DNA from: a virus
IMG/VR virus record: IMGVR_UViG_3300047480_000791
Coordinates: 1-25,402 of that record
DNA: 25,402 nucleotides
Reading direction: 5' to 3' (one strand)
Shown here: positions 2,079-23,756 of the stretch, piece by piece
How positions within the stretch are numbered: position 1 is the first letter of the stretch
How the letters are laid out: every line of letters begins with the position of its first letter
Position numbers and translations under genes: made by a program
The notes under the pieces: generated by a model
Seen by the model: only the letters and a program-made list of their open reading frames with translations
Database searches by the model: none
What the model was told of the DNA's origin: nothing

Positions 2079-2755
2079 TTCCTGTTTACTTTCTTTATTC
2101 CCGGGAAACCAATATGAATGAAAACTGGGAAAGACTACTGGAAAAGGTTCCTCATGCAGAAGCCATTGCCAGCGTTGGTTCTATTTTTGAAAGTCATAAG
2201 CATATTGCAGACCTGTGCACAGCTGATAGATTTTATGTAGTGGATGCAGACTGTTGGATAGTTGACAAGTTTAATTTTGATACCAAGATAGAATTGACTC
2301 CTAAGAGTGTTGCAGTGTTCAGGGCTAAGAATCCCGTTAATGGCCTAGTATATGGTCACGGTGGTATCAAACTGTTTAGTAAAGATTGTTTTAGTGTAGA
2401 ACGCTTGGATAGACCGGACATGACTACCACACTGGCCGACAGTTATATAAAAATAAATGTCTTAGCCAGTGAGCATAGATTCAACTATACCGCTTACAGT
2501 ACTTGGCGAACAGCATTTAGAGAAGCAATTAAACTAAGTGCAGGTATAAACAAAAATAACAATATATTAGAAGATACCCAGCGACTGGATATGTGGCTTA
2601 ACGCAGGGCTAGAAGCCCCGTACGGATATTTTTCCATACAGGGTGCTAGGCAGGGTATTGAGTATACAAAAAGCCAGCATTACGACCATAGTGTAGTCAA
2701 TAATTTTGATTGGCTGCGTAATAGATTTGTAGAGTGGACGGGCTTAAATGAGTAA
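2072..2755 (+). CDS. Glycosyltransferase-like protein, paralog 3 of 3
   Basis: At 227 aa this is the shortest of the three tandem paralogs and the most diverged at the N-terminus, with VYFLYSRETN in place of the FLSYxEP block. RFYVVDADC (53-61), NPVNGLVYGHGGIKL (87-101), TWRTAFRE and IQGARQG are all kept, so the putative metal-binding DAD and the GGxKL block are intact. Start: ATG at 2072 overlaps the preceding stop by 7 nt. It ends in Leu-Asn-Glu, a consequence of the ATGAGTAA overlap with the next gene. The family call has the same limits as for the two preceding genes. Confidence 0.6.
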   Translation: MVIPVYFLYSRETNMNENWERLLEKVPHAEAIASVGSIFESHKHIADLCTADRFYVVDADCWIVDKFNFDTKIELTPKSVAVFRAKNPVNGLVYGHGGIKLFSKDCFSVERLDRPDMTTTLADSYIKINVLASEHRFNYTAYSTWRTAFREAIKLSAGINKNNNILEDTQRLDMWLNAGLEAPYGYFSIQGARQGIEYTKSQHYDHSVVNNFDWLRNRFVEWTGLNE

Positions 2756-3614
2756 CGAAGATCAAACAAGTTGGTTGTTCGGTCTTGAAAAGTTCTTTGA
2801 ATTTACGGGACACAGAGATAAAAAAGAACTTGTAAAAAATATGATTAGAATGATTCATTCTAATGAAAAGGATAAAATTTGGGCGTTAAAGAACTGCATA
2901 GCCAACGACTATGAAAAATTTGGCACAGAGAACAGAGAACTACGACTGGGATTATATGTTGAATTGTTACAGCAACAGCGCATAGATCACAAGTCATTGT
3001 TTTGGTTAATGAACGATATCTGGGCAGATGACTTTAGTAATAAATTACATTTATTTTTTAATAACTCGGATATAAACACTGCCAATGATCTTTTTAGTAA
3101 GAGTCAAGTGTTAAGTAAGATCTGGATGGCAGAAATCCTACAAAAATTTATGCCCAATCTGGGCAACATAGCATTGTTTGGTGGTTGGTATGCTCAGCAT
3201 ATGTATTATCTAGACAATTTAAACTTTAAACAAGTATTGAATATAGATCTGGATTCCGAAGTCTTAGTTAAATCAAACAATATACTAGGTTCTCCGTCTA
3301 ATTACAAAACGCTGACAGCAGATGTGAATTACGTGTTGCATGAAGGTAAAATTTTTATTGATGGCACAGCGTTTGATCCTGACTTGGTTATAAATACCAG
3401 CGCAGAACACATGTCCACAGAATGGTTTGATAAGTTATCACTGGGGCAAATGGTATTAATTCAGACCAATGACATGCAGGATATGCAAGGGCATGTTAAT
3501 TGTTGTTCTTCTTTGGAGGAAGTAAAATTAAAATATAAACTGCGACAAGTCTTATTTGCAGGAGAGCTCACACTTAGCAAAGGTTGTCGCTTCATGTTAT
3601 TTGGAATAAAATAA
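2748..3614 (+). CDS. Class I SAM-dependent methyltransferase-like protein
   Basis: This 288-aa protein has a helical N-terminal half (res 1-130) and a Rossmann-like C-terminal half. That half reads as a methyltransferase fold: strand 1 plus glycine loop NIALFGGWYAQ (140-150), strand 2 ending in the acidic VLNIDLD (163-169), then TADVN, and a DLVINTSAEHM block (212-222) followed by strand VLIQTND (236-242). The final strands RQVLFAGELTL and RFMLFGIK fit the last antiparallel strands of the fold. The expected GxGxG is relaxed to FGGW, so SAM binding is likely but not certain. It starts by an 8-nt overlap (ATGAGTAA) and its stop shares one base with the next ATG. The substrate is unknown. Confidence 0.6.
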   Translation: MSNEDQTSWLFGLEKFFEFTGHRDKKELVKNMIRMIHSNEKDKIWALKNCIANDYEKFGTENRELRLGLYVELLQQQRIDHKSLFWLMNDIWADDFSNKLHLFFNNSDINTANDLFSKSQVLSKIWMAEILQKFMPNLGNIALFGGWYAQHMYYLDNLNFKQVLNIDLDSEVLVKSNNILGSPSNYKTLTADVNYVLHEGKIFIDGTAFDPDLVINTSAEHMSTEWFDKLSLGQMVLIQTNDMQDMQGHVNCCSSLEEVKLKYKLRQVLFAGELTLSKGCRFMLFGIK

Positions 3615-4765: not shown

Positions 4766-5514
4766 CACCCATAGAATACAATGAACTTTTAAAGACACGT
4801 AGAACAGCCAAAGTTTTCAAAGAAGAAAAATTAACGGCAGAACAGCGCAGGCTAGTAATTGACGCTGTAAATTTTGCGCCAGCCCAAAATTCCAATAGAA
4901 ATTTTATCCCACTGCTTTTAGAAAAACAAGAACACAAAGAATGGTTCCAGGATAATATATTCTTTATGGTGCCTAAATACAGTGATAAATTGGGCAAGGT
5001 CATGCCCAAAGAATATCAACTAGGCATACTCACCGCACCAGTGGTGATACTATATTTAGAAGCTAGTAAAAATTTACCGATTGTAAACCATCCCAGTCAT
5101 TTAGATCAAAATGGTTCATATATGAAAGAACAGGATGTTAATGATCTATACATACGCAATATAAATGTTGGTATGAGCATGGCTTTTGTTTCCAGCCAAG
5201 CATATATGCTGAACTTAGATGTCGGATTCCTCGGCTGTACCCGGGGAATTAGAACGGTAATGGATACACCTGAATTAAGAGATCATATGTTTGGTATTTT
5301 CAGTGAATATGGTGTTAGTAAGGAATTAGCAAATAAGCATTGTCTAGCTCCGGGATATGCGGTATGCATTGGACATGCAGAGCCCATACATAACCAGAAT
5401 CGGCGCACCACAATAGAAGAACTTGAGGGATTGCCGTACAAAGACGGTTATTATACAAATATTAAAAAACATCAGTTAAATAGTATGGAAAATATTAGAG
5501 TAATCAATGAATAA
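4762..5514 (+). CDS. Nitroreductase-family FMN oxidoreductase-like protein
   Basis: This 250-aa protein has the nitroreductase layout. RRTAKVF (13-19) corresponds to the N-terminal RRSxR-type FMN phosphate site, and APAQNSNRNFIP (39-50) to the APSGxNxQP loop. NVGMSMAFVSSQAYMLNLDVG (from res 135), followed by FLGC, is the long helix and glycine/cysteine block before the second FMN contact. APGYAVCIGHAEP (196-208) is the closing strand with the family's G-x-P. The family uses FMN and NAD(P)H for two-electron reductions, and some members oxidise azolines in peptide natural products. It sits by a 4-nt ATGA overlap between two radical SAM genes, so a redox role in the same pathway is likely but unproven. 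Confidence 0.75.
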   Translation: MTPIEYNELLKTRRTAKVFKEEKLTAEQRRLVIDAVNFAPAQNSNRNFIPLLLEKQEHKEWFQDNIFFMVPKYSDKLGKVMPKEYQLGILTAPVVILYLEASKNLPIVNHPSHLDQNGSYMKEQDVNDLYIRNINVGMSMAFVSSQAYMLNLDVGFLGCTRGIRTVMDTPELRDHMFGIFSEYGVSKELANKHCLAPGYAVCIGHAEPIHNQNRRTTIEELEGLPYKDGYYTNIKKHQLNSMENIRVINE

Positions 5515-6907: not shown

Positions 6908-7261
6908 ATGAAAGAATTTGGAGACGATTTTAAATTATATGCTTATAAAAAATACGATATATGTGATTTGTCATTGAAAGTCACTGAGAATTTTGTATTG
7001 ACTTATAGATTTACGCACGATGAGCTAAAGCAAATATTTACTCATTCTTTTGATAAGGAAGGCGTTAATATAAGATTAAACTCTGGAACAAAGCTATATG
7101 CAGTTATTAAAAAGAACATAAGCGCACTGAGACTAACTATCAACACTCATGGTGGTAATTTTAACTTACGTTATGAAGTTCAAAGTTTTATAAATTTAAT
7201 AGCAGAGTACGAAAGGCAAATGAATAATCCAGTTGATTGGGATCACTATGATCCTCGATAA
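6908..7261 (+). CDS. Small protein of unknown function (117 aa)
   Basis: I do not recognise this protein. It is polar and mixed alpha/beta in pattern, with alternating strand-like stretches (FVLTYRF, NIRLNSGTKLYAVI, NFNLRYEV) and a final amphipathic helix before an acidic tail (DWDHYDPR). It has a single Cys, no signal peptide and no membrane segment. It has its own Shine-Dalgarno and follows directly on the truncated radical SAM start, so it may have arrived with the replacement that destroyed that gene. Its stop lies inside the following gene (14-nt overlap). It could be an accessory protein for the SGNH-like neighbour or simply a phage accessory gene. Confidence 0.7.
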   Translation: MKEFGDDFKLYAYKKYDICDLSLKVTENFVLTYRFTHDELKQIFTHSFDKEGVNIRLNSGTKLYAVIKKNISALRLTINTHGGNFNLRYEVQSFINLIAEYERQMNNPVDWDHYDPR

Positions 7262-8144
7262 CAAAATAATATATGTTAACGGAGATAGTTTTACAGAAGG
7301 TTGCGACACTGCCAATCATATGTTTCCTTTTCCTGTGGAGTACTTTTCGTTAAATGACGTCAACGACAACGTAAACAACGAACATGTAATTTCTGCTCAA
7401 CATAAATTTATTGAAATCAGAGAAAACCTCATTAATGAAGATAAAGCCTTTAATGATAATATTCTTAGAATAGAAAAAGAATTGCGATGGAGTACTACCC
7501 TGGGCAAAATTTTAAACCGTGATGTTATTAATATGTCATCAATGGGCGGAAGTTCTATGTTTGCCATTGCGTTTAGATCTATAGCAGATATTAATGAGTT
7601 AATAAAACGAGGTTATAAAGTCACAGATGCAATTATACAAATAACTTCTGATAGTAGATTTAGTATATTCCAGGATGTAGGTAAAGAAAAAGAACCAAGT
7701 CCATCTAGATTTGGCCAACGATATTATAAATTAAACAGTGGAAACATTTTCCATTCAGATATTAAGTTAAAAAATTTAATTAGTTCGTTTTTCGAAGCTG
7801 AACTTGCCGAGTTTAATAACTATAGATGGTTCCATGAACTGTATATGTTAACGCATACATTACAATCTATATCCCCGGGTATTAGAGTAATATTTGTGGA
7901 CAGTATTTTTTATAAGAATACAATATACGGAAAAGCCGGCAGCTTTGACGATGTGATCGACTTCGAAGTTCCAGAGTTTAATCATATCCTAGATTTTAAA
8001 AAAGAGTTTGATGATAAATTAGAATTATGCATGCTAGATCAAATTGGGCATGATGAAAAGTTAATAACAGCGGGGTTACATTTTGCGTCCGAAGTTCATG
8101 ACCGATTTGCCAAAGCTATAGCAGAAAGATACTTTAATGAATAA
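7248..8144 (+). CDS. SGNH/GDSL hydrolase-like protein
   Basis: This is a 298-aa protein. Block I is VNGDSFTEG (10-18), with Ser14 as candidate nucleophile. NMSSMGGSS (95-103) fits block II glycine, and IIQITSDSR (129-137) occupies the block III position but lacks the usual GxND Asn. The end, AGLHFASEVHDRFAKAI (275-291), fits block V with H278 (or H284) as the catalytic His; the canonical Asp three residues before it is not obvious. Known members are esterases, acetylhydrolases or acyltransferases acting on glycans and lipids. I chose ATG 7248 over the earlier TTG at 7233, because the strand IIYVNGDS then starts near the N-terminus. It could act as a sugar O-deacetylase, but divergence in blocks III and V leaves activity uncertain. 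Confidence 0.7.
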   Translation: MILDNKIIYVNGDSFTEGCDTANHMFPFPVEYFSLNDVNDNVNNEHVISAQHKFIEIRENLINEDKAFNDNILRIEKELRWSTTLGKILNRDVINMSSMGGSSMFAIAFRSIADINELIKRGYKVTDAIIQITSDSRFSIFQDVGKEKEPSPSRFGQRYYKLNSGNIFHSDIKLKNLISSFFEAELAEFNNYRWFHELYMLTHTLQSISPGIRVIFVDSIFYKNTIYGKAGSFDDVIDFEVPEFNHILDFKKEFDDKLELCMLDQIGHDEKLITAGLHFASEVHDRFAKAIAERYFNE

Positions 8145-10850: not shown

Positions 10851-12120
10851 ACGAATCATGTCTTTTGAAAAGAAAGACAAAATACATCGCTGGCTTGATA
10901 CCAATAATTTTTGTGTTATGCCATTTGCGCACGTTGCCATAGAATCAAATGGTGACGTTCGACCATGCTGTTTAGGTAACGTTTTAAAAAACGATGACGG
11001 TGCCAGTCTTAATATTGACAATGGTTCAGTGGCAGATGTTATCAAGCATCCTACGCATATTAAATTTAGAGAAGCATTTCTTAGAAACGAGCAACATCCT
11101 GCCTGTGAACCATGTTGGGGTGTCAATGCTAAGGATAGATTCAGTGGTAGATACGTGTACTCTAGTAGTTTAAAAGTAGCCGAAGTAGTTGAAGAAGTCA
11201 TGAATGGCAAGCAACCCGAACAACGTTTGGTCTGGCTGGAAATAAAAGCAGGCAATAGATGCAATCTTGCATGTAGAATATGCGGGTTATGGAACAGTGC
11301 TAAGTGGTTAAAAGAAACATTTGATTTGAAAAAATTAAACAACCCAGAGTACCCTGATTTTAGATCTAGCTCAGAGTTTAAGTATAACCAACAAGCTAAG
11401 TGGATTGACAACATAGACTTTTGGCGAAACATAGACATGTTCGAAGACGTTCGCGTCATACACATCATGGGCGGAGAACCTTTGATGATTGAAGAACACT
11501 ATGAAATGTTAAAAGCTATTATTGATCGCTTTGATGCCAGTAAGATATTACTATGGTACAACACCAACGGTACTATTATTCCTACACCTGAGCAGGAGGC
11601 TATACTTAATAAATTTAATGCTGTACATTGGAGTTTAAGCATAGATGATTTTGGCGATAAATTTAATTATCAACGCAGTGGAGCAGTCTGGGACGAAGTA
11701 AAAAATAATTTAGAATATTTTTTCAGTAAGCCAAACTATCACTCTACTATAGATGCCACTGTCAACATTTATAATATTGCAACTCTGCGTATTTTTTTAC
11801 AGGAACTCGAAAAGATGCCGTTTATAAATTCATTTACGCCGCATTATGTAACGACTCCCAATAGCCCAAATAATGTAAGAAGTCTACGCAAGGACATAAA
11901 AGAAACAATAACTAATTATTTGCTAGAAACTAAACAGCATGTAAATGTACGTTATCATCAAACCATAGATGAAATAATTGACTATATGAACGGTATAGAC
12001 ATGTGGTGCGAAGATACAGATGCTAGAAGAAAAAAAGAAATATTCTTTATTGATAAATCTAGAAACGAAGATTTTGTAAAAACATTCCCGGAGATGGCAC
12101 AGCTATTAAACTATGAGTGA
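10843..12120 (+). CDS. Radical SAM protein with N-terminal twitch domain (group I)
   Basis: This is a 425-aa protein. Twitch-like Cys: FCVMPF (C24), RPCC (C42, C43), and CEPCW (C88, C91). Core: IKAGNRCNLACRIC with C140, C144 and C147, S152-x-x-W155, MGGEP (GGEP 210-213), YNTNGT, SIDDFGDKFNYQR. C-terminal TFPEM block. ATG at 10843 gives the 8-nt overlap ATGTCTGA and has AAGGA 11 nt upstream; an in-frame ATG at 10858 would lose the junction pattern and is less likely. A long opposite-strand frame lies across the 5' half, but the conserved domains place the real gene on this strand. Confidence 0.92.
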   Translation: MSERIMSFEKKDKIHRWLDTNNFCVMPFAHVAIESNGDVRPCCLGNVLKNDDGASLNIDNGSVADVIKHPTHIKFREAFLRNEQHPACEPCWGVNAKDRFSGRYVYSSSLKVAEVVEEVMNGKQPEQRLVWLEIKAGNRCNLACRICGLWNSAKWLKETFDLKKLNNPEYPDFRSSSEFKYNQQAKWIDNIDFWRNIDMFEDVRVIHIMGGEPLMIEEHYEMLKAIIDRFDASKILLWYNTNGTIIPTPEQEAILNKFNAVHWSLSIDDFGDKFNYQRSGAVWDEVKNNLEYFFSKPNYHSTIDATVNIYNIATLRIFLQELEKMPFINSFTPHYVTTPNSPNNVRSLRKDIKETITNYLLETKQHVNVRYHQTIDEIIDYMNGIDMWCEDTDARRKKEIFFIDKSRNEDFVKTFPEMAQLLNYE

Positions 12121-13426
12121 ACAAGGCGATAAAAACAAACAACTAAGTCCTACCATTTGTTTACTTCCGGTCAGCAGTATTAGTATACATGCCACTGGTA
12201 AAATTGTACGTTGCCAAATGAGCGAAACTCCCATGGGAGACGTATCAGAAGGCAGTATTATTCAGCAATGGGATAACGAAAAATTTCAACAGCTAAGACA
12301 AACACAGTTAGATGGAGATTGGTTACGTGGCTGCGATAACTGTAAAATAAAAGAAGAAAAGAATGTAGTCAGTAAACGACAACATTGGATGACCCTGGAT
12401 CTCTTCGACGATGTATGGGAAAAAGTCGACTGGCAAAAAAAGACTGGTAATAAAATATATCATCTAGACATTGCATTTAATAATATTTGCAATTTCAAAT
12501 GTATGATGTGTAGCAGTGCCTATAGTAATGCGTGGATAGGCGACGAAGAAAAATTAAAAGAAAAAGGATTCAATGGCAGCTCAGGGCATGATATAAGAAC
12601 TAGTAGCACATGGAATAGACAGAAATGGACTTTGAGTAGCCAACAACTAGAAGAAGTAATAGATAATGCTCCGGATCTTAGACGTGTTGAAATATTAGGA
12701 GGCGAACCTTTCCTAGTACCAGAATTCTTAGAATTCCTAAAACTATTGCGTGATCGAGGCCTAGATAAAAACATCGAGTTAATGATTACTACTAACGGTA
12801 GCGTAGTAACCGAAGAAAAGCTAGAATTGCTAGAAGGGTTCAAATATGTAAATATCAATCTTAGTCTAGACGGCACTGGTGCTTACTTTTCTTATCTCAG
12901 AAGTGCCGGATGGATTGATTGGCAAGGAATAGTAGAAAAAGCCACCATGATTAAAGAATGGTGCGACCGACCACGTCCGGGGCAATATAAGCTAAACATT
13001 AATGGAACATTTCAGCTTATTAACATATTGAATTTGCGCGAGTTCATCGAGTTCATTATCAAGTTCTATGGTTGGGACAAAAATGATCCCGTAACTGCTA
13101 GTAAAAATAGACATAGCTTTGAACATAGAATTTTAGTAGGACCTAAAATGCTAAAGGCTGACTGGGCACCAGTCAGGTTAGTTGATGCTGCCATTGATCA
13201 AATCGACAGTTTGATACACGACTACCCGTTCTTATCAAGGATAACAGAAAGACGATACTTAAATGATATTAGGACTCTGTTAATGAAAATTAAATCTGAC
13301 ACTCACGGTGATGCAGAGGAGTATAGAAAAAACTTTGTTACTTTTATTAAGGCCATTGACTTCATAAGAAAAAATAATATCGTAGATGTAGCGCCGGAGT
13401 TGGCAAAGGAGTTATTCAATGAATGA
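12113..13426 (+). CDS. Radical SAM protein with variant N-terminal twitch domain (group I')
   Basis: This is a 437-aa protein. The twitch-like domain keeps ICLLPV (C16), C34 and CDNC (C74, C77), but the usual Cys-Cys pair is Cys-Gln, followed by the block SETPMG. The same change is seen in the gene at 20201 (RCMMSSAPMG). Core: FNNICNFKCMMC with C126, C130 and C133, S138-x-x-W141, LGGEP (GGEP 196-199), ITTNGSV, SLDGTG and YLR. The C-terminus has IDFIR and APEL. The block KTGNKIYHL before the core also matches 20201 (KTGNNIYHL), so the two form a subfamily. Start by ATGAGTGA overlap. Confidence 0.92.
   Translation: MSEQGDKNKQLSPTICLLPVSSISIHATGKIVRCQMSETPMGDVSEGSIIQQWDNEKFQQLRQTQLDGDWLRGCDNCKIKEEKNVVSKRQHWMTLDLFDDVWEKVDWQKKTGNKIYHLDIAFNNICNFKCMMCSSAYSNAWIGDEEKLKEKGFNGSSGHDIRTSSTWNRQKWTLSSQQLEEVIDNAPDLRRVEILGGEPFLVPEFLEFLKLLRDRGLDKNIELMITTNGSVVTEEKLELLEGFKYVNINLSLDGTGAYFSYLRSAGWIDWQGIVEKATMIKEWCDRPRPGQYKLNINGTFQLINILNLREFIEFIIKFYGWDKNDPVTASKNRHSFEHRILVGPKMLKADWAPVRLVDAAIDQIDSLIHDYPFLSRITERRYLNDIRTLLMKIKSDTHGDAEEYRKNFVTFIKAIDFIRKNNIVDVAPELAKELFNE
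13406..13411 (+). promoter_or_regulatory. Shine-Dalgarno AAGGAG for the gene at 13419
   Basis: AAGGAG lies 7 nt before the ATG at 13419, inside the end of the preceding radical SAM gene. It is the best ribosome binding site in the run; many neighbouring starts have none. Confidence 0.65.
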
Positions 13427-14594
13427 TAATTTTTGTTACATGCCATGGCATGGTCTAGCTATTGCTGCCAACGGCGGCGTTAAACCATGCTGTCAATGGC
13501 AGGGAAACTTAGGAAAAGTCGACGAAGTTAATCTAGTAGAGCAATTTAAGTCACACCCTAAAATTGTTGCTCTTCGAACAGATTTTATCAATAACAAAAA
13601 ACCCAGCAGTTGTTCTAGTTGTTGGACTAGGGAAAGTCAAATAGGCGAAAGTAGACGCTTATGGTTTAAAGAAAAATTCATTGATTCCATACCCACAGAC
13701 TACTCGTATTCAGCTGAGTTGGATGAAATATATTGGACTCAGGCTGATATAAATCTCAGCAATGTCTGCAACTTAAAGTGTAGGATGTGTGGCAGCTGGG
13801 CTAGCAACAGTTGGTTTGAAGAAGATCTTGTACTAAGTAAAATAAATCCTGCGTTTGAAAAAGAAAGCAATCCTGCAAATCAAAAAATCAGACAACATGA
13901 ATTGGATGATCTTAGATCTCTGCTACCTTATCTTAGCAAAGTTAAACGAATTGATTTTAAGGGCGGAGAACCTATGATGGCTAAAAATCACGTCGAGTTC
14001 TTAGAAATGCTGGTCGAAGAAGGTTTACATGAAAAGTTAGTTCTACAGTATACAACCAATGGTACAATAGTTAATCCTAAAATACTAAATGTATTATCTA
14101 AATTTAAAAAGATTAGAATAATGTTTAGTATAGAAGGAACAGGTAGCCTATACAGTTACATCCGCGGTGGCAAGTATACAATTGATCAAATGGAAGAAAC
14201 TTTAGTTTTGTATAACAATTTGCCCAATGTAGAGATAGGTTTTAACGTAACTATTCAGGCTTATAATCTTTTAAATCTCAAAGAATTAAGACAACAATTA
14301 ATAACATGGGATAAAAAGTATTCCAATGTAAGTTCTAATAGTGCATTCACAACAATATGTAACAGTCCAATGTACCTAAGCCCGTTTGTATTGCCAGCGC
14401 CTCTTAGATTACTAGCAGAAGAACAGTTATCTGATATAGAAGATTTTAAGATACTAGTCAGCAATATTAAATCTGATAATATACACCGGCAACATTGGCA
14501 AACTTTTAAACATTTTACCAAAGAATTGGATCAAATGAGAGAAGAAAATATACTCAGTCTTATACCTGAATTAGAAAGTTACTGGCATGGTTAA
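13419..14594 (+). CDS. Radical SAM protein with N-terminal twitch domain (group I)
   Basis: This 391-aa protein is compact and starts with FCYMPW (C6), KPCC (C24, C25) and CSSCW (C65, C68). Core: INLSNVCNLKCRMC with C117, C121 and C124, S129-x-x-W132, KGGEP (GGEP 182-185), YTTNGT, and SIEGTGSLYSYIRGG with Glu where most paralogs have Asp. It ends with LDQMR and IPEL. The start is set by a strong Shine-Dalgarno and the ATGAATGA overlap. It ends at ATGGTTAA, which overlaps the split group II gene. Confidence 0.92.
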   Translation: MNDNFCYMPWHGLAIAANGGVKPCCQWQGNLGKVDEVNLVEQFKSHPKIVALRTDFINNKKPSSCSSCWTRESQIGESRRLWFKEKFIDSIPTDYSYSAELDEIYWTQADINLSNVCNLKCRMCGSWASNSWFEEDLVLSKINPAFEKESNPANQKIRQHELDDLRSLLPYLSKVKRIDFKGGEPMMAKNHVEFLEMLVEEGLHEKLVLQYTTNGTIVNPKILNVLSKFKKIRIMFSIEGTGSLYSYIRGGKYTIDQMEETLVLYNNLPNVEIGFNVTIQAYNLLNLKELRQQLITWDKKYSNVSSNSAFTTICNSPMYLSPFVLPAPLRLLAEEQLSDIEDFKILVSNIKSDNIHRQHWQTFKHFTKELDQMREENILSLIPELESYWHG

Positions 14595-15288
14595 ATTAGT
14601 TGCTGTAGAAGACAATTATGCTCCTAAGGACAATTGGTTGCGTATAGAATGGAATTTAGGAAAACGTTGTAATTACGATTGTAGTTACTGCGGCAGCGAC
14701 ATTCATGACAGAGAAAGTCCTCATTTAAGTTTAGAAGTAATCGAAAAAACAGTTAAACAAATTGCAGATGTTGCCAAATCACAGGGCAAGGAATGTCGTA
14801 TTAGTTTAACTGGCGGTGAGCCGTTTGCGCATCCAAAAATAATTGAGATACTTAAGACTATTAAAGATCACGGTATCAACAAAATCAGTGTTACTACCAA
14901 CGGCAGTGTGCCACTTAAAAAATATGTGGACAGTCTGCCATATATTAATTATTACATTTTTAGTTACCATTTTGAATTTGCTTATCATGACAAAATTATA
15001 AACACTATCGTAGAGTTAAATAAACTTGTTAAAGAACGTAAGAATCAAAATTTGCATACCCATTTGATGTACCTACCAGGTAAAATGGCAGAAGCAAATG
15101 AGATAATTGATATCATGAATGAAAATGATGTACACTGGGTAATAAGAAGAATCCGTCCTAGGTTAGATCCAGAGACAAAGACATGGGCGGCACCTGGATT
15201 AAGTGGTTTGAAAACTACACACGATAAATGCAAGGACGATTACTATACTCAAGAAGAACTTGATTTTATGTTGAATAAAAAGAAATGA
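14587..15288 (+). CDS. Radical SAM core protein lacking its own auxiliary domain (group II, split, part 1)
   Basis: This 233-aa protein is short for a radical SAM enzyme with an auxiliary domain. Core: EWNLGKRCNYDCSYC with C28, C32 and C35, TGGEPFAHP (GGEP 76-79), and VTTNGSV. It stops at YTQEELDFMLNKKK, which aligns with YTQSQIDYIQANRK in the middle of the fused relative at 21381. The missing C-terminal Cys domain is encoded by the next gene, which starts by ATGA overlap in the -1 frame. The two probably form a heterodimer. Alternatively they are joined by a -1 frameshift in the A-rich stretch 15277-15285, or the split is a one-base sequence error. Confidence 0.9.
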   Translation: MVKLVAVEDNYAPKDNWLRIEWNLGKRCNYDCSYCGSDIHDRESPHLSLEVIEKTVKQIADVAKSQGKECRISLTGGEPFAHPKIIEILKTIKDHGINKISVTTNGSVPLKKYVDSLPYINYYIFSYHFEFAYHDKIINTIVELNKLVKERKNQNLHTHLMYLPGKMAEANEIIDIMNENDVHWVIRRIRPRLDPETKTWAAPGLSGLKTTHDKCKDDYYTQEELDFMLNKKK

Positions 15289-15623
15289 CCAGTAAAGTAA
15301 CAAATTGGGCAAATATAGTAGTGCATTACGCAGACGGTACCAGTGAAGAAAGCAACGTCAATGATTTACTGGCCAACGAAACAAATAAGTTTAAAGGTTG
15401 GATGTGCTGGGCAGGTTTGCAAAACTTAACCATAGACAACGATGGTAATGTTTGGCGTGCTATCTGCAAGGTAGGTGGCAAATTAGGTGACATACACACT
15501 GGTTTTTCTGTGCCCACAGAACCCATAATATGCACCAAAGAAAACTGTACTTGCGCTGCCGATATACAGCTAAGTAAAGCAGATTTAAATAATATTAAAA
15601 GATTAAGGATTAGTAATGAGTGA
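15285..15623 (+). CDS. Stand-alone SPASM/twitch-like Cys domain (group II, split, part 2)
   Basis: This 112-aa protein is made almost only of the C-terminal domain of group II radical SAM enzymes. NETNKFKGW leads to C41, then DNDGNVWRAIC (C61), GGKLGD, and C83-x4-C88-x-C90. The fused relative at 21381 has C252, C273, C299, C304 and C306 with the same CX4CXC ending and the same NKFKDW lead. It has no SAM-binding core of its own, so it should work with the 14587 product and carry the auxiliary cluster. It begins at the ATG of the ATGA overlap and ends in the 8-nt overlap ATGAGTGA. Confidence 0.85.
   Translation: MTSKVTNWANIVVHYADGTSEESNVNDLLANETNKFKGWMCWAGLQNLTIDNDGNVWRAICKVGGKLGDIHTGFSVPTEPIICTKENCTCAADIQLSKADLNNIKRLRISNE
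15605..15609 (+). promoter_or_regulatory. Shine-Dalgarno AAGGA for the gene at 15616
   Basis: AAGGA lies 6 nt before the ATG at 15616, within the end of the preceding gene, and supports that start together with the 8-nt overlap. Confidence 0.55.
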
Positions 15624-16920
15624 CGAAGGCTTGGGTAAAAAACACCTAAAGAATTTTAAACCCAGCGAAATTTTCAAAGAAAAATACGGCTTTACTGTAG
15701 ACGATAGTACGTTTTGTATAATGCCATTCATACATACAAGTACAACCACCAATGGCGATTTTAGACTATGCTGCCGTAGTACCAAAATTTGGGATATTAA
15801 AAATATTCCTTTGCGTGATCTATGGAATCATAGAAAATATAAAACAGTTAGAAACAATTTAGCAGTTGGTGTTAAAGATACTCATTGCAACGCTTGTTGG
15901 AAGATGGAAGACAAAGGTATCACTAGTCTTAGACAGAGTCAAAATTACGAACGCACAGAACAATATGCACATATAGTCAACGAATGGAATCGCACAGAAT
16001 TGGTTCCATGGAGTATCCCCATTGTTGAATTTAAATTAAGCAATTTATGCAATCTAAAATGTCGCATGTGCTGGCCCAAGGACAGCACACCATGGTTGCA
16101 AGACTGGGACGATGTAAAACATATATACGAAGACGGTGAGCAGGATTACATCAATGGAATCATTGACAGTAATAATATGCGAAGTAAACCTATACTAAAC
16201 TTATTCGAAACACATAACGACTTTGTCAATGATTTATATGAAATAATAGACGATATCAAAGAATTTGAATTTGCCGGTGGTGAACCTCTAATGGATCCAC
16301 TTCATTATAACATGTTAGCGAGGATTAAAAAACCCGAAGAAGTAATTTTAAAGTATAGTACAAATTTATCTGACCTTGAAGCTAAAAAAGGTCGTAATGT
16401 GTTAGACCTTTGGGGAAAATTCAAAGCAATACGTTTAACAATTAGTATAGACGGCTACGACGAACTCAATGCTTATATTAGACACGGTTCTATATGGAAC
16501 GACGTAAAAGAAAATATAAAACAAACCAAAGACAGACTGGGCGACAAATTAGAGTATATAAAAGCCAGTACTTGTATATCTGCACTTAATATTGAATATC
16601 TAGTAGAAACCCTCGAAGCAATAGACACTGACTTTGATGTAATGTGGCATACAAGTCGCTTACAATGGCCTAGCTTCTTACATGCTAACGTTCTACCAAT
16701 AGATAGACTTGAAGCAGCTAAAGAAAAGATGGTTGCAAAAACGTTGTTGATGAAAGAAGACTCTGTTAAAGAAATTAACAATAAGAGACATATGTTAGAC
16801 GCCATTAACTGGGTAGACGAGTGTATAGCTACGAATAAATACAATGTTAACTTTGAAAAGTTTCAAAAATTTAATGAAACATTAGACACAAAAAGAAAAG
16901 AACAGTTTACAGGAAAATAA
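15616..16920 (+). CDS. Radical SAM protein with N-terminal twitch domain (group I)
   Basis: This is a 434-aa protein with a 30-residue lead before FCIMPF (C34), RLCC (C52, C53) and CNACW (C91, C94). Core: FKLSNLCNLKCRMC with C145, C149 and C152, S157-x-x-W160, AGGEP (GGEP 221-224), YSTNLS, SIDGYDELNAYIR. The C-terminus has LDTKR, but the protein ends a few residues later, so it lacks the final PEL-type block seen in most group I members. It is followed after 3 nt by a different kind of gene, so it closes the first block of consecutive radical SAM genes (8137-16920). Confidence 0.92.
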   Translation: MSDEGLGKKHLKNFKPSEIFKEKYGFTVDDSTFCIMPFIHTSTTTNGDFRLCCRSTKIWDIKNIPLRDLWNHRKYKTVRNNLAVGVKDTHCNACWKMEDKGITSLRQSQNYERTEQYAHIVNEWNRTELVPWSIPIVEFKLSNLCNLKCRMCWPKDSTPWLQDWDDVKHIYEDGEQDYINGIIDSNNMRSKPILNLFETHNDFVNDLYEIIDDIKEFEFAGGEPLMDPLHYNMLARIKKPEEVILKYSTNLSDLEAKKGRNVLDLWGKFKAIRLTISIDGYDELNAYIRHGSIWNDVKENIKQTKDRLGDKLEYIKASTCISALNIEYLVETLEAIDTDFDVMWHTSRLQWPSFLHANVLPIDRLEAAKEKMVAKTLLMKEDSVKEINNKRHMLDAINWVDECIATNKYNVNFEKFQKFNETLDTKRKEQFTGK

Positions 16921-16923
16921 TTA

Positions 16924-18324
16924 ATGGCTTACTACGATTACTTACATTTGAAAAACATTGGCTTTGGTATTGCATGGTTAGATATAACAGATAAAATTAC
17001 AGACACCACAGCTCTAGCATTGTCTAAAAATATAACAGAGTATTGGGTTCAGGAAAACGAAAACTTCCACTTGTCCACTACATGTAATAAAGATCCCGAT
17101 GCCATTTTATCCTGGGCAGCAGATGCAGGATTAAATTATTTGTTAGTAGCCGCCATAGGCACTAATCTTAGTAAACGAAATAACTTACATCACGAAATAC
17201 CTCAGTTCCTAGAAAACAACGCCAATTTCGCAGTTGCAGGTCACGTACTTGATAAAGGCGATAAGTTTTATGAACTACACCATCAGTGCTATCTTGTTAA
17301 TATGAACTGGTGGAAAAATAATGGCCGTCCATCTATGGGCATGGAAGAATTAAACACGGCATGGTCAACTAATAAACCTGTTCGCAGTGAAGAAAATTGG
17401 CATGACAATTATACACCGCATTGGATTGCACAGGGCGACACAGTTGAAAACTACACAGGTAGACGTTTTGGCTGGAACATAATTAATACTGCGCTACATA
17501 CAGGACATACTGTGATAAGTTTCGATGAAACTGTGCGCGACAGCAAATATTACATATACCCAGAAGTTTCCAATGATTTCCATTCAAAGATTTCTAATGT
17601 ACTGGAAAGTTTACAGGGGTACAGTCATTTTGCGGCAAACACAGAATCTCCTCCGGATAAGTTGCTGGATACTGATATGCAGGGTGTGATATGCACTGCC
17701 GGTGGTATAACACCACTGTTAACTGCTTATACCGCTGGGTTAAAACCCGGTGGTAAAGTCACAGTTTTTGATTTTAGTCCAGTTTCTCTGGCTATACAAA
17801 GAAGACTCAGGGAGGTTAAATGCGATTACAAAGATTTCAAAACAACATTTCAGAGTTTATTCACTGAGTTAAATTTAGAACCCATGGTCAAAGCTCAGCG
17901 CAACATAGACAGAATGCAAGAACTTATAAACGGTATGATGCCAGAAGGTCTTGAAGATTTCATCAAGAATGTCTGGCCGCATCTTGATATACTATTTGTA
18001 TCATGCAATCTATTTGACATCAGCCAAGTAAAAAATAAACTAGCATCTAGGCATTCGGGCGAAAAAACATATGTACATTTAACTAACATATTGCATTATC
18101 AAAATACCGCATGGTTGTTTAGTGCAACTTCTAGATATAGACTAGAGCTTGATATTCTTTATAAATTTGCAGATGCGGGCATGGATAAATTCCAACTGTA
18201 CCAAAATAGACCAGGATTTAAGGTAAACTGGAGGAACGAAACACCTAGACAGGTTTTTGATAATCCAGCTAAGTTATTATATAGAGTTAAAACATTGGAG
18301 ATCCTACCATGGATAACAAAGTAA
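16924..18324 (+). CDS. Two-domain protein: glycosyltransferase-like N-terminus, methyltransferase-like C-terminus
   Basis: This is a 466-aa protein. The N-terminal half has the strand NYLLVAAIGT (71-80), then AVAGHVLDKGDKFYELHHQCY (103-123) and LVNMNWW (124-130). That block resembles conserved regions in uncharacterised glycosyltransferase-like proteins. From about 250 a Rossmann-like domain begins: GVICTAGGITPLL (254-266), KPGGKVTVFDFSPVSLAIQ (274-292), then LDILFVSCNLFD, consistent with a class I methyltransferase fold. A middle block, TGRRFGWNIINTALHTGH (178-195), is of unknown role. It has an AGGA 9 nt before the ATG. It may transfer and methylate a sugar, or a single unknown activity may use both halves. 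Both assignments are tentative. Confidence 0.5.
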   Translation: MAYYDYLHLKNIGFGIAWLDITDKITDTTALALSKNITEYWVQENENFHLSTTCNKDPDAILSWAADAGLNYLLVAAIGTNLSKRNNLHHEIPQFLENNANFAVAGHVLDKGDKFYELHHQCYLVNMNWWKNNGRPSMGMEELNTAWSTNKPVRSEENWHDNYTPHWIAQGDTVENYTGRRFGWNIINTALHTGHTVISFDETVRDSKYYIYPEVSNDFHSKISNVLESLQGYSHFAANTESPPDKLLDTDMQGVICTAGGITPLLTAYTAGLKPGGKVTVFDFSPVSLAIQRRLREVKCDYKDFKTTFQSLFTELNLEPMVKAQRNIDRMQELINGMMPEGLEDFIKNVWPHLDILFVSCNLFDISQVKNKLASRHSGEKTYVHLTNILHYQNTAWLFSATSRYRLELDILYKFADAGMDKFQLYQNRPGFKVNWRNETPRQVFDNPAKLLYRVKTLEILPWITK

Positions 18325-20211: not shown

Positions 20212-21400
20212 TAAAGTCTGTCTAATACCATTTGTAAGTATTGCAACACACCCTGCTGGTTTTATTAGCAGATGTATGATGAGCTCTGCACCCATGGGAT
20301 CAATGACAGATAGTAACGTATGGGACAACGGTAAATTTGTACAACTAAGAACAGACATGGTGGATGGAATATGGAATTTACCGGGCTGTAATACCTGTCA
20401 TGAACGTGAAAAACAAGGACTTGTTAGCCAACGCCTTAATTGGAAAACCAATGAAAGATGGTGGAACGGCGACATCTGGGATAGTAAAAACTTCGAGCAC
20501 AGTAAAACAGGTAATAACATATATCATCTGTTCTTAAATACCAGTAACTTATGTAATTTCAAATGCAGAATGTGTAACAGCATGTTCAGCAATAGTTGGA
20601 TAAATGATGATAAATTGCTTAGAGACAATGGATTTAAGCGAGAAGAATATGTAGATTATACGAAAAATAAAAATGATTTAATGACCTTTGTAACCAATTT
20701 ACTGCCGCAACTGTCAGAACTTCGTATGATAACCGTAACAGGCGGTGAACCTTTTATCAACAACGACTTACTAGATGTTTTCGATGTATTGGATAATGCA
20801 GGTATATTAAAGAATGTTAGACTAAGCATAACAACCAACGGCAGTTTGTTAACGGAACAACACTTATTACGTTTACGTAATGCCAAATCTGTTAATATTA
20901 ATATCAGTGTGGACGGTACAGGTAAACTATTTGAGTATATGCGAGGTGGCGAGCAATGTACCTGGCAGGAGCTTACTGCTAAAATAGACATGGTATGCAA
21001 GTTCAGAAACGAATATAAAAACTTTTTATTCAGTCCTAACGCTAGCTATCAAATATATAACATGCTCAACGTAAAAGATTTTTATGACTGGGCAGAATCT
21101 CTGATCAAACGTCCAGACGAATGGATAGAATTTAGACTGTTGACTCATCCTGAATGTTTGCATGTAGCAACTGCTCCGGATAGCATCAAGAAAAAGGCAC
21201 TGGCTCAGATAGAGTATGTTGAACAGAAATATAGCAGCGCCAATAAGTTTTTTCTAGATAACATGAAAAAGAACCTAGCTATGCCGGCTTCCAGTGCCCA
21301 CTGGCAGGATTTTAAAAAATTTACAACATTATTAGATAATAAACGCAATCAGAATCTGCGTGAAGTCTGTCCTGAACTATATGAAAACTTTACCGTTTGA
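20201..21400 (+). CDS. Radical SAM protein with variant N-terminal twitch domain (group I')
   Basis: This is a 399-aa protein. VCLIPF (C7), C25 and CNTC (C63, C66) are kept, but the Cys-Cys pair is Cys-Met, followed by SSAPMG, as in the gene at 12113 (SETPMG). Core: NTSNLCNFKCRMC with C118, C122 and C125, S130-x-x-W133, TGGEP (GGEP 181-184), ITTNGSL, SVDGTGKLFEYMRGG. It ends with LLDNKR and CPEL. It starts by an 11-nt overlap and is followed by a group II enzyme. At 12113 the order is similar, with one extra group I gene in between. Confidence 0.92.
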   Translation: MIPDKVCLIPFVSIATHPAGFISRCMMSSAPMGSMTDSNVWDNGKFVQLRTDMVDGIWNLPGCNTCHEREKQGLVSQRLNWKTNERWWNGDIWDSKNFEHSKTGNNIYHLFLNTSNLCNFKCRMCNSMFSNSWINDDKLLRDNGFKREEYVDYTKNKNDLMTFVTNLLPQLSELRMITVTGGEPFINNDLLDVFDVLDNAGILKNVRLSITTNGSLLTEQHLLRLRNAKSVNINISVDGTGKLFEYMRGGEQCTWQELTAKIDMVCKFRNEYKNFLFSPNASYQIYNMLNVKDFYDWAESLIKRPDEWIEFRLLTHPECLHVATAPDSIKKKALAQIEYVEQKYSSANKFFLDNMKKNLAMPASSAHWQDFKKFTTLLDNKRNQNLREVCPELYENFTV

Positions 21401-22337: not shown

Positions 22338-22567
22338 TGAATATACAAGATCTACCATTACGACAATTACAATTAGAAGCTGCTCGTGTTATCAGCACTA
22401 TGCCGGCCACCAATGATAACATTTATATTTTTAACAAAGAAAGCAGGCATAATAGCCAAGGTTGGTATGTCGCTGCCATAGAATGGTATGTAAAACAATA
22501 TGGTGGAATGCCCAGCGACACGGGTCCGGGCAAAGATGTAAAAATGATATACGAAGACAATGAGTGA
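22337..22567 (+). CDS. Small protein of unknown function (76 aa)
   Basis: I do not recognise this protein. It has an N-terminal helix-like stretch (LRQLQLEAARVI), a short strand (NIYIFN), an aromatic segment GWYVAAIEWYVKQYGG (42-57) and an acidic end (IYEDNE). It has no Cys and no signal peptide. It is tightly joined to radical SAM genes on both sides, TAATG upstream and ATGAGTGA downstream. It could be an accessory or recognition subunit, or a modified substrate peptide. It lacks a Gly-Gly or Gly-Ala leader cleavage site near the centre that would mark a typical RiPP precursor (Gly-Gly occurs at 56-57 but is followed by only 19 residues). Confidence 0.65.
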   Translation: MNIQDLPLRQLQLEAARVISTMPATNDNIYIFNKESRHNSQGWYVAAIEWYVKQYGGMPSDTGPGKDVKMIYEDNE

Positions 22568-23756
22568 TTTAAAAACCAGTGAATATGACTTTACTAAGAT
22601 TCCTTACAGTGACTTAGTTAGAGTTGGGCAAAGAACAATGCTGTACCGCGATATGTTTACCGTATCGTGGCTACTGGGACGTTACTGTAACTATCGTTGT
22701 AGTTATTGCTGGCCCTATGCCCGCAGTGACACCAAAGATCACAGACCCACGCCATTGATGTTAAAAACAGTAGATGAGATCAAACGTCAAGCACGCGAGC
22801 GTGGCTTTAATAGTTTCCACTTTAGTCTAAGTGGAGGCGAGCCAACATTCCATCCTGCTTATATTGATATTCTTAATCATTTAAATGCAGATGCAGGTAA
22901 TACAAATTATACCAGTGTGCATATGACTTCAAATATGAGTCGTCCTATTAAATGGTTTGAAGAACAGTATGTGCCCGCAGTCAAGAATTTCCATAGAGCA
23001 AGTATTACTGCTAGCTGTCATTTAGAACATGTTGATACTGATAAAAAAGTAGAACAGTTTGCAGATAAACTAGTGCTATGTCAAGAATATGACACACAAA
23101 TAACAGTCAATCAAGTTATGGTGCCTGAACAGTTCTACAAGATCTATGACCTAGCATTATATTTTCATAGCCGTGGAATTAACGTAACATTAAAGCCACA
23201 GAGTGATCCTACTGCAAGTAGAGTTGTTGACGGATATACAGATGACATGTTAGATAAATTACACAATGGCATGCCACAGCGCGCCTTCACTGAAGAAAAG
23301 GCACAAAAGGCAGGGTTAGTTGCTAGACCAAAACCTACTTTTAAAATTGATGATGCCAGAACTATGCAAAAACAAACATACGGTCAGGGTATACCGCAAC
23401 ACTTTCAAATAGAATTCATGGACAAAGAGGGTAATCCCTGGTTCATGGATCAGGCAGAGCGTTTTAATGCATTTAATTTCAACAACTTTAATAAGTGGGA
23501 ATGTAGTAGCGGTTATAGAAGTATTATTATTCGCGAACCCGACGGTACTGTTAAACGAAGTTATAGTTGCAGTGAAGTTCCTCTGGGACATATAGAGACA
23601 GGCTTTAAGTTATATGATAAGCCAATGCCCTGCGGTGGTACAAGTTGCGTAAGTAGTGCTGATTCAAAGATACCTAAACGAGCACCAGGTACAAAGTTAC
23701 CATTATTCCCCGGAGATAAAACATATGAAGAAGATACTAGTAGCGGGCAACAGTAA
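22560..23756 (+). CDS. Radical SAM protein with C-terminal Cys domain (group II)
   Basis: This is a 398-aa protein. Core: SWLLGRYCNYRCSYC with C43, C47 and C50, LSGGEPTFHP (GGEP 92-95) close to TGGEPFAHP of the 14587 product, MTSNMS. C-terminal domain: FNKWEC (C315), C337 in SYSCSEVPLG, then C358-x4-C363. The sixth-position Cys of the group's CX4CXC ending is Ser365, so one possible cluster ligand is lost. Between core and Cys domain it has about 50 more residues than the relative at 21381. Start by ATGAGTGA overlap. Confidence 0.9.
   Translation: MSDLKTSEYDFTKIPYSDLVRVGQRTMLYRDMFTVSWLLGRYCNYRCSYCWPYARSDTKDHRPTPLMLKTVDEIKRQARERGFNSFHFSLSGGEPTFHPAYIDILNHLNADAGNTNYTSVHMTSNMSRPIKWFEEQYVPAVKNFHRASITASCHLEHVDTDKKVEQFADKLVLCQEYDTQITVNQVMVPEQFYKIYDLALYFHSRGINVTLKPQSDPTASRVVDGYTDDMLDKLHNGMPQRAFTEEKAQKAGLVARPKPTFKIDDARTMQKQTYGQGIPQHFQIEFMDKEGNPWFMDQAERFNAFNFNNFNKWECSSGYRSIIIREPDGTVKRSYSCSEVPLGHIETGFKLYDKPMPCGGTSCVSSADSKIPKRAPGTKLPLFPGDKTYEEDTSSGQQ

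Follow-up and report, generated by a model that had tools for sequence, protein, structure and literature searches.

Overlapping genes for a radical SAM core and an auxiliary-cluster protein

The stretch of DNA analyzed here, called the window throughout, is a virus record of 25,402 bases. It contains two overlapping open reading frames (ORFs), P1 and P2, which lie between two further radical SAM genes, A and B, and two fused paralogues are found further downstream.

13419..14594, + strand: gene A, an N_Twi radical SAM gene with an N-terminal twitch domain (NF033640, 280.5 bits; cutoff 170), which ends 8 nt into P1
14587..15288, + strand: P1, an ORF of 233 amino acids (aa), radical SAM core protein without an auxiliary-cluster domain
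15285..15288, + strand: ATGA, the stop/start overlap of P1 and P2, 4 nt common to both ORFs
15285..15623, + strand: P2, an ORF of 112 aa, putative stand-alone auxiliary iron-sulfur-cluster protein with cysteines C41, C61, C83, C88, and C90
15616..16920, + strand: gene B, an N_Twi radical SAM gene (NF033640, 294.1 bits), whose first 8 nt overlap the end of P2
21360..22337 (from a GTG; or from an ATG at 21381), + strand: fused core-auxiliary radical SAM paralogue, matched by the A1 and A2 profiles in core-auxiliary order
22560..23756, + strand: second fused core-auxiliary paralogue, matched by both the A1 and A2 profiles

P1 carries a CxxxCxxC motif (C28, C32, and C35) that is invariant in all 12 aligned orthologues, and PF04055 gives a full radical SAM core match to it (56.7 bits; cutoff 29.5), so that both marks of the radical SAM superfamily, the motif and the core, are present. 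Its best NCBIfam match is to the viperin-like family NF038283 (61.2 bits, below the cutoff of 180), and its match to the N_Twi_rSAM model NF033640 also falls below the cutoff (38.5 bits against 170).

The cysteines of P2 are spaced C41-x19-C61-x21-C83-x4-C88-x-C90, exactly as an earlier note on this DNA had described them; that note's account of the two ORFs at 14587-15288 and 15285-15623 with an ATGA join, and of a five-A run at 15277-15281, was also accurate. C41, C61, C83, and C88 are invariant in all 35 auxiliary sequences compared, which come from all three forms described below (split, fused, and reversed order), and C90 is kept in at least 90% of them. Judged by sequence, P2 has the conserved cysteine set for at least one extra cluster that marks SPASM/Twitch proteins, and its four invariant cysteines would suffice to ligate one [4Fe-4S] cluster, in keeping with the single auxiliary cluster by which a Twitch domain is defined (PMC10470005). 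Assignment of P2 to a family is weak. The Pfam SPASM model PF13186 does not match P2, its sole Pfam match is to Amidase_2 (E = 0.16), and its only NCBIfam match at an E value of 0.1 is to the C terminus of STM4011 (NF038073, 19.1 bits; cutoff 200). Nor does P2 share a chain with its core in the manner of a SPASM/Twitch auxiliary domain, as the two are separate ORFs in the window, in 20 other viral contigs, and in four bacterial genomes.

The two halves are encoded separately in viral relatives

A search of viral contigs with P1 gave 17 loci (42 to 94% identity), and P2 is a separate ORF in every one of them. A profile of P2 found 20 viral loci, namely, those on the same 17 contigs and three more, and P1 is a separate upstream ORF in all 20; some viruses may be represented by two of these records, and the distinct viral P1 sequences number 14, the window included. 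Looking for the same split in relatives, as the earlier note had proposed, thus gave the same two ORFs in each of the 20 viral contigs with a P2-profile match, a pattern far beyond chance. The possibility raised in the same note that homologs are always fused is false, given the split pair in these 20 contigs and in the four bacterial genomes.

The spacing of the halves varies among the 20 contigs. They overlap by 4 nt in nine and are adjacent with a different overlap in one (contig 009181), and in the other 10 they lie 893 to 2,227 nt apart with other genes between them. At the loci for which ORFs were listed, the intervening genes are other radical SAM genes, and in these arrangements P2 stays beside gene B rather than beside P1.

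Comparison of the window with five relatives gave 0.035 to 0.177 nonsynonymous changes per site for P1 and 0.017 to 0.162 for P2, against synonymous values of 0.700 to 0.844 and 0.619 to 0.814, which are near saturation. The resulting pn/ps ratios are 0.05 to 0.24 for P1 and 0.02 to 0.20 for P2. Both genes are under strong purifying selection, and neither is decaying.

A terminase match was obtained in 3 of the 20 viral records (172, 66, and 205 kb), so at least those three are phages; the other records are fragments or have a terminase beyond the reach of the model. The match in the 172-kb virus record (G152:C1:128506-129705) contains four in-frame stops, one TGA and three TAA. Among annotated phage records, the P1 search gave only two weak matches, to Campylobacter phage CP21 (24% identity), and the P2 search gave none. 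A DNA search with positions 13000 to 17000 of the window also gave no match.

The split pair in bacterial genomes

The pair was found as two ORFs in four bacterial genomes, G001, G002, G083, and G084, the first two being Bdellovibrionales metagenome-assembled genomes and the last two coming from a search of the order to which G002 belongs. P1 and P2 overlap by 4 nt in all four, the overlap reading GTGA in G002. The G001 contig with the pair also holds a PheT-like gene (named by eye), and the G084 pair lies on a contig of 916,837 bases, where the neighboring radical SAM genes are N_Twi-like (scores were obtained for two). In the order search, which covered 140 genomes, the P2 profile matched in 20; by open-frame length and ORFs, a stand-alone P2 is present only in G002, G083, and G084, the remaining matches being pieces of longer proteins or contig-end fragments. 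G001 has, in addition, a third core/auxiliary pair (L142:4434-5108/5087-5491), with a core unlike P1, near a carbamoyltransferase-like gene.

Fused and reversed-order relatives

The P1 profile found 550 viral relatives. The 80 best of these are mostly single proteins of about 290 to 370 aa with a P2-like C-terminal domain, and among them there are 60 distinct relatives that form one fused core-auxiliary protein. When aligned, the P1/P2 join sits in the interdomain linker of the fused relatives, bordered on one side by a conserved YYs.eEL helix and on the other by N.vNdl...N.f.GW.C, where the auxiliary part begins; neither P1 nor P2 lacks a conserved block. In line with the comparison drawn in the earlier note, the fused gene at 21381 in the window has the same C-terminal cysteine pattern, and the P2 profile matches its residues 243 to 321 (E = 1.2e-10). 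The top match of this paralogue (21360; P0003) is STM4011, NF038073, at 36.6 bits (below the cutoff of 200).

The opposite order, auxiliary part before core, occurs in six bacterial relatives (L124 to L128 and L130), from Bdellovibrionota and one gammaproteobacterium. Since core and auxiliary parts are found in one chain in both orders, their pairing seems to be independent of how the chain is linked. The occurrence of fused, split, and reversed forms within one family makes this a readable case of a domain changing ends. Coordinates of four reversed-order genes are L124:4647-5777, L127:4611-5792, L128:4602-5804, and L130:4046-5230, and some of the reversed-order relatives share a locus with a core-auxiliary paralogue.

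A tree was built from 84 core sequences (18 split, 60 fused, and 6 in reversed order); it replaced a 107-row tree with many long branches, from which 25 distant paralogue rows were dropped and to which 2 were added. The three forms require at least 4 changes on the 84-row tree, compared with 22.2 in shuffles. Seventeen split rows and three fused rows (L032, L046, and L050) make up one set (support 94/94), the 57 other fused viral rows lie apart from this split-containing set (97/94), and the remaining split row, L123, falls outside the set of 17 on a long branch, its placement being unsure. There may have been one split origin with later refusion, or more than one splitting.

Structure prediction for the fused relative L032, based on 46 sequences, gave a pLDDT of 87.1 and a pTM of 0.86. 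By VIA-align, this model matches BlsE (7vob; Z = 16.5, rmsd 4.2, 267 residues, model residues 22..358), MoaA (2fb2; Z = 16.5, rmsd 4.0, 237 residues, model residues 21..339), and SkfB (Z = 16.0, rmsd 4.1, 254 residues), and the three matches span both domains. A fold is also predicted for P2 by itself (pLDDT 88.8, pTM 0.77). A Foldseek search of the PDB with the P2 model gave no match (best E = 1.4), and a search of PDB sequences with the auxiliary profile gave nothing useful (best E = 0.29).

Genes around the pair

Of the 14 split loci examined, 12 have a homologue of A immediately before P1 (the exceptions are L026 and L114), and 12 have a homologue of B immediately after P2 (the exceptions are L141 and L143, the latter ending soon after P2). 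Genes A and B both encode a SPASM-like domain at the N terminus. With A, P1, and B included, 13 radical SAM genes are present in the window: nine that score above the N_Twi cutoff (starting at 5507, 8137, 9393, 10843, 12113, 13419, 15616, 19039, and 20201), P1, the fused genes at 21360 and 22560, and a gene at 3584. Its other genes include a carbamoyltransferase C terminus, a weak glycosyltransferase match, a nitroreductase, an Asp/Asn hydroxylase, and ThyX; the proteins encoded at 16924-18324, 7233-8144, 2748-3614, and 347-1093 gave no Pfam match at an E value of 0.01. At a guess made from these neighboring genes alone, the substrate step is perhaps the decoration of a glycan or peptide. Pelagimyophages have been described as carrying radical SAM cassettes in a host-recognition cluster together with glycosyltransferases (PMC7029224).

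Homologues of the gene at 347-1093 were recognized by eye in the bacterial cluster L143. The two N_Twi radical SAM genes that occupy 12113-14594 overlap by 8 nt, and their counterpart in L006, L011, L012, and the bacterial locus L141 is a single double-enzyme ORF of 840 to 876 aa.

A probable radical SAM enzyme in two subunits

We consider it likely, with a probability of roughly 0.8, that P1 and P2 are translated separately and form the two subunits of a single Twitch-like radical SAM enzyme. We infer a heterodimer because fused relatives exist in both orders, the two halves always co-occur, and synteny is kept; the P1-P2 complex itself, the occupancy of the clusters, the electron-transfer or ligand role of the auxiliary cluster, and the substrate are all likewise inferred. 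P1 would provide the partial barrel and the SAM-cleaving [4Fe-4S] cluster, held by C28, C32, and C35, and P2 would be a detached Twitch-like domain with one further [4Fe-4S] cluster on C41, C61, C83, and C88, C90 being a possible extra ligand. In the clade of the window, the ATGA overlap probably couples translation of the two genes, which would yield similar amounts of the two proteins, and these would then assemble noncovalently at the interface that lies within a single chain in the fused relatives. The auxiliary cluster could thereby come to lie near the active site of P1 and serve in substrate binding or in the uptake or return of electrons. For PapB, a case has been made that auxiliary clusters take part in electron transfer between molecules (PMC10470005), and a detached cluster is therefore chemically plausible.

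The earlier note had offered three readings of the join, and the natural two-protein enzyme is the one that stands. A one-base sequence or assembly error that broke a fused gene might be suspected from the homopolymer at 15277-15281, but the split is repeated in independent contigs (20 viral ones besides the window, and those of four bacterial genomes, including copies with the halves far apart), and together with the purifying selection on both halves this refutes the reading, which we give a negligible probability. The remaining reading was programmed -1 frameshifting where P1 ends in an A-rich stretch, which would produce a fused protein of 345 aa besides the short one. At the window join, the sequence reads AAA AAG AAA TGA and P2 is in the -1 frame; a TAA at 15276-15278 in the P2 frame means that the shift would be possible only within the last few codons of P1. 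Against such a mechanism, P2 starts with its own ATG at the join, and the A-run varies among relatives that have the ATGA overlap (L025 and L111, GTATCGAAATGA; L123, TATAAAGTATGA). Moreover, no frameshift could join the halves in the 10 of 20 viral contigs where they are 893 to 2,227 nt apart with genes between them. With neither a slippery site nor an overlap conserved, programmed frameshifting was rejected for the family, and for the window we regard it as highly improbable.

Two further explanations accept separate proteins and differ over the partner of P2. Since P2 lies beside gene B when genes intervene, a partner other than P1 is possible, and P2 might be an auxiliary-cluster subunit shared by several radical SAM cores of the gene cluster rather than dedicated to P1. 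A second split family, described below, also speaks for sharing, in that four contigs each combine a single split pair with a single core-only paralogue: 042889 (L204 and L202), 027808 (L209 and L205), 033571 (L203 and L212), and 017917_001873 (L208 and L225). On the other side, P1 orthologues and P2 always co-occur, the fused relatives join the core type of P1 to the auxiliary type of P2, and genes A and B already have their own SPASM-like domains, which makes sharing unlikely in our judgment. Somewhat less probable again is that P1 is a complete single-cluster enzyme, as its match to the full radical SAM core by itself would allow, and that P2 travels along with it as an independent protein, either an iron-sulfur protein or a substrate carrier; the nearest relatives, however, hold both parts in one chain, in either order.

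Relationship to known radical SAM enzymes

In the SPASM/Twitch enzymes MoaA, BlsE, BtrN, SpeY, anSMEcpe, and PqqE, both domains are in one chain. P1 and P2 likewise combine a core with a C-terminal cysteine domain for auxiliary clusters and differ in being two genes. The STM4011 family (NF038073) is also a single chain, unlike P1/P2, and all matches to it are far below the cutoff. The N_Twi proteins (NF033640), which are encoded in the same gene cluster as P1 and P2, similarly have a core and a Twitch/SPASM-like cysteine domain; they are single chains in which the cysteine domain is N terminal, like the auxiliary-core relatives and unlike P1/P2.

Among radical SAM systems made of two proteins, Dph1-Dph2 is a heterodimer whose two subunits each have a cluster (PMC11048331); unlike P1/P2, it has atypical cysteine motifs in both subunits and no core/auxiliary division. 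LipS1 and LipS2 are two radical SAM proteins in place of one enzyme, but each is whole, has its own two clusters, and acts in sequence with the other (PMC9585515). The GeoRSP SPASM protein TIGR04304, by its name, comes from a system in which a radical SAM/SPASM protein is also present; TIGR04304 does not match P2, and no mention of GeoRSP was found in the open-access literature searched. Marine T4-like phages resemble the window in their wealth of radical SAM genes, of which a 183-kb member has 12 (PMC5332604), and no split enzyme is described in the available portions of these reports (PMC5332604 and PMC7029224). No division of a radical SAM enzyme into core and auxiliary proteins was found in the open-access literature searched; the enzyme type is known, and the arrangement of a detached core and auxiliary subunit appears to be undescribed in that literature.

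The role of auxiliary clusters in radical SAM enzymes has been called "largely enigmatic" (PMC10470005). In a natural two-subunit form, the cluster could be omitted, restored, prereduced, or swapped with the core left unmutated, turning the question into a mixing experiment. There is also a warning for annotation: the other half of a short radical SAM gene that encodes only a core may be adjacent or kilobases away.

A second split radical SAM family

Related viruses encode a second such family, in which the core is of the CxLxCPxC type and 205 to 235 aa long and the auxiliary half is often the next, usually overlapping, ORF; four cysteines are invariant in all seven aligned auxiliary halves. 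Its 58 distinct proteins, tallied at 79 loci out of 121 relatives, comprise 22 that are split, 26 that are fused, and 10 short cores without a recognized auxiliary half. One of these 10, L213, begins an auxiliary ORF that is broken by the contig end, so that core-only proteins number 9 or 10 of the 58. Their existence suggests that the core may work alone or with a shared helper, and the core-only proteins L202, L205, L212, and L225, from contigs that also have a split pair, are candidates for the use of a shared auxiliary subunit.

Auxiliary-cluster domains in these viral and bacterial gene clusters might, more generally, be interchangeable modules, detached in at least two families, placed on the opposite side of the core in bacterial relatives, and perhaps serving several cores, core-only paralogues in the same genome among them, a proposal that we put forward tentatively and with considerable doubt. 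If it is true, radical chemistry would be run by a core together with a mobile electron-transfer or ligand subunit.

Second-family split pairs include L178:1547-2179/2145-2528, L179:1552-2184/2114-2491, L016:3716-4345/4335-4664, and L204:2504-3172/3132-3458. The four core-only paralogues named above lie directly before thyX (L202:2456-3163, L205:2492-3163, L212:760-1428, and L225:705-1370). In L175 (2093-2776) and L177 (926-1600), the second-family auxiliary half is fused to the next gene, from which it is separate in L176; by eye, the gene fused in L175 and L177 is a homologue of the YAYKKYD protein gene at 6908-7261 in the window.
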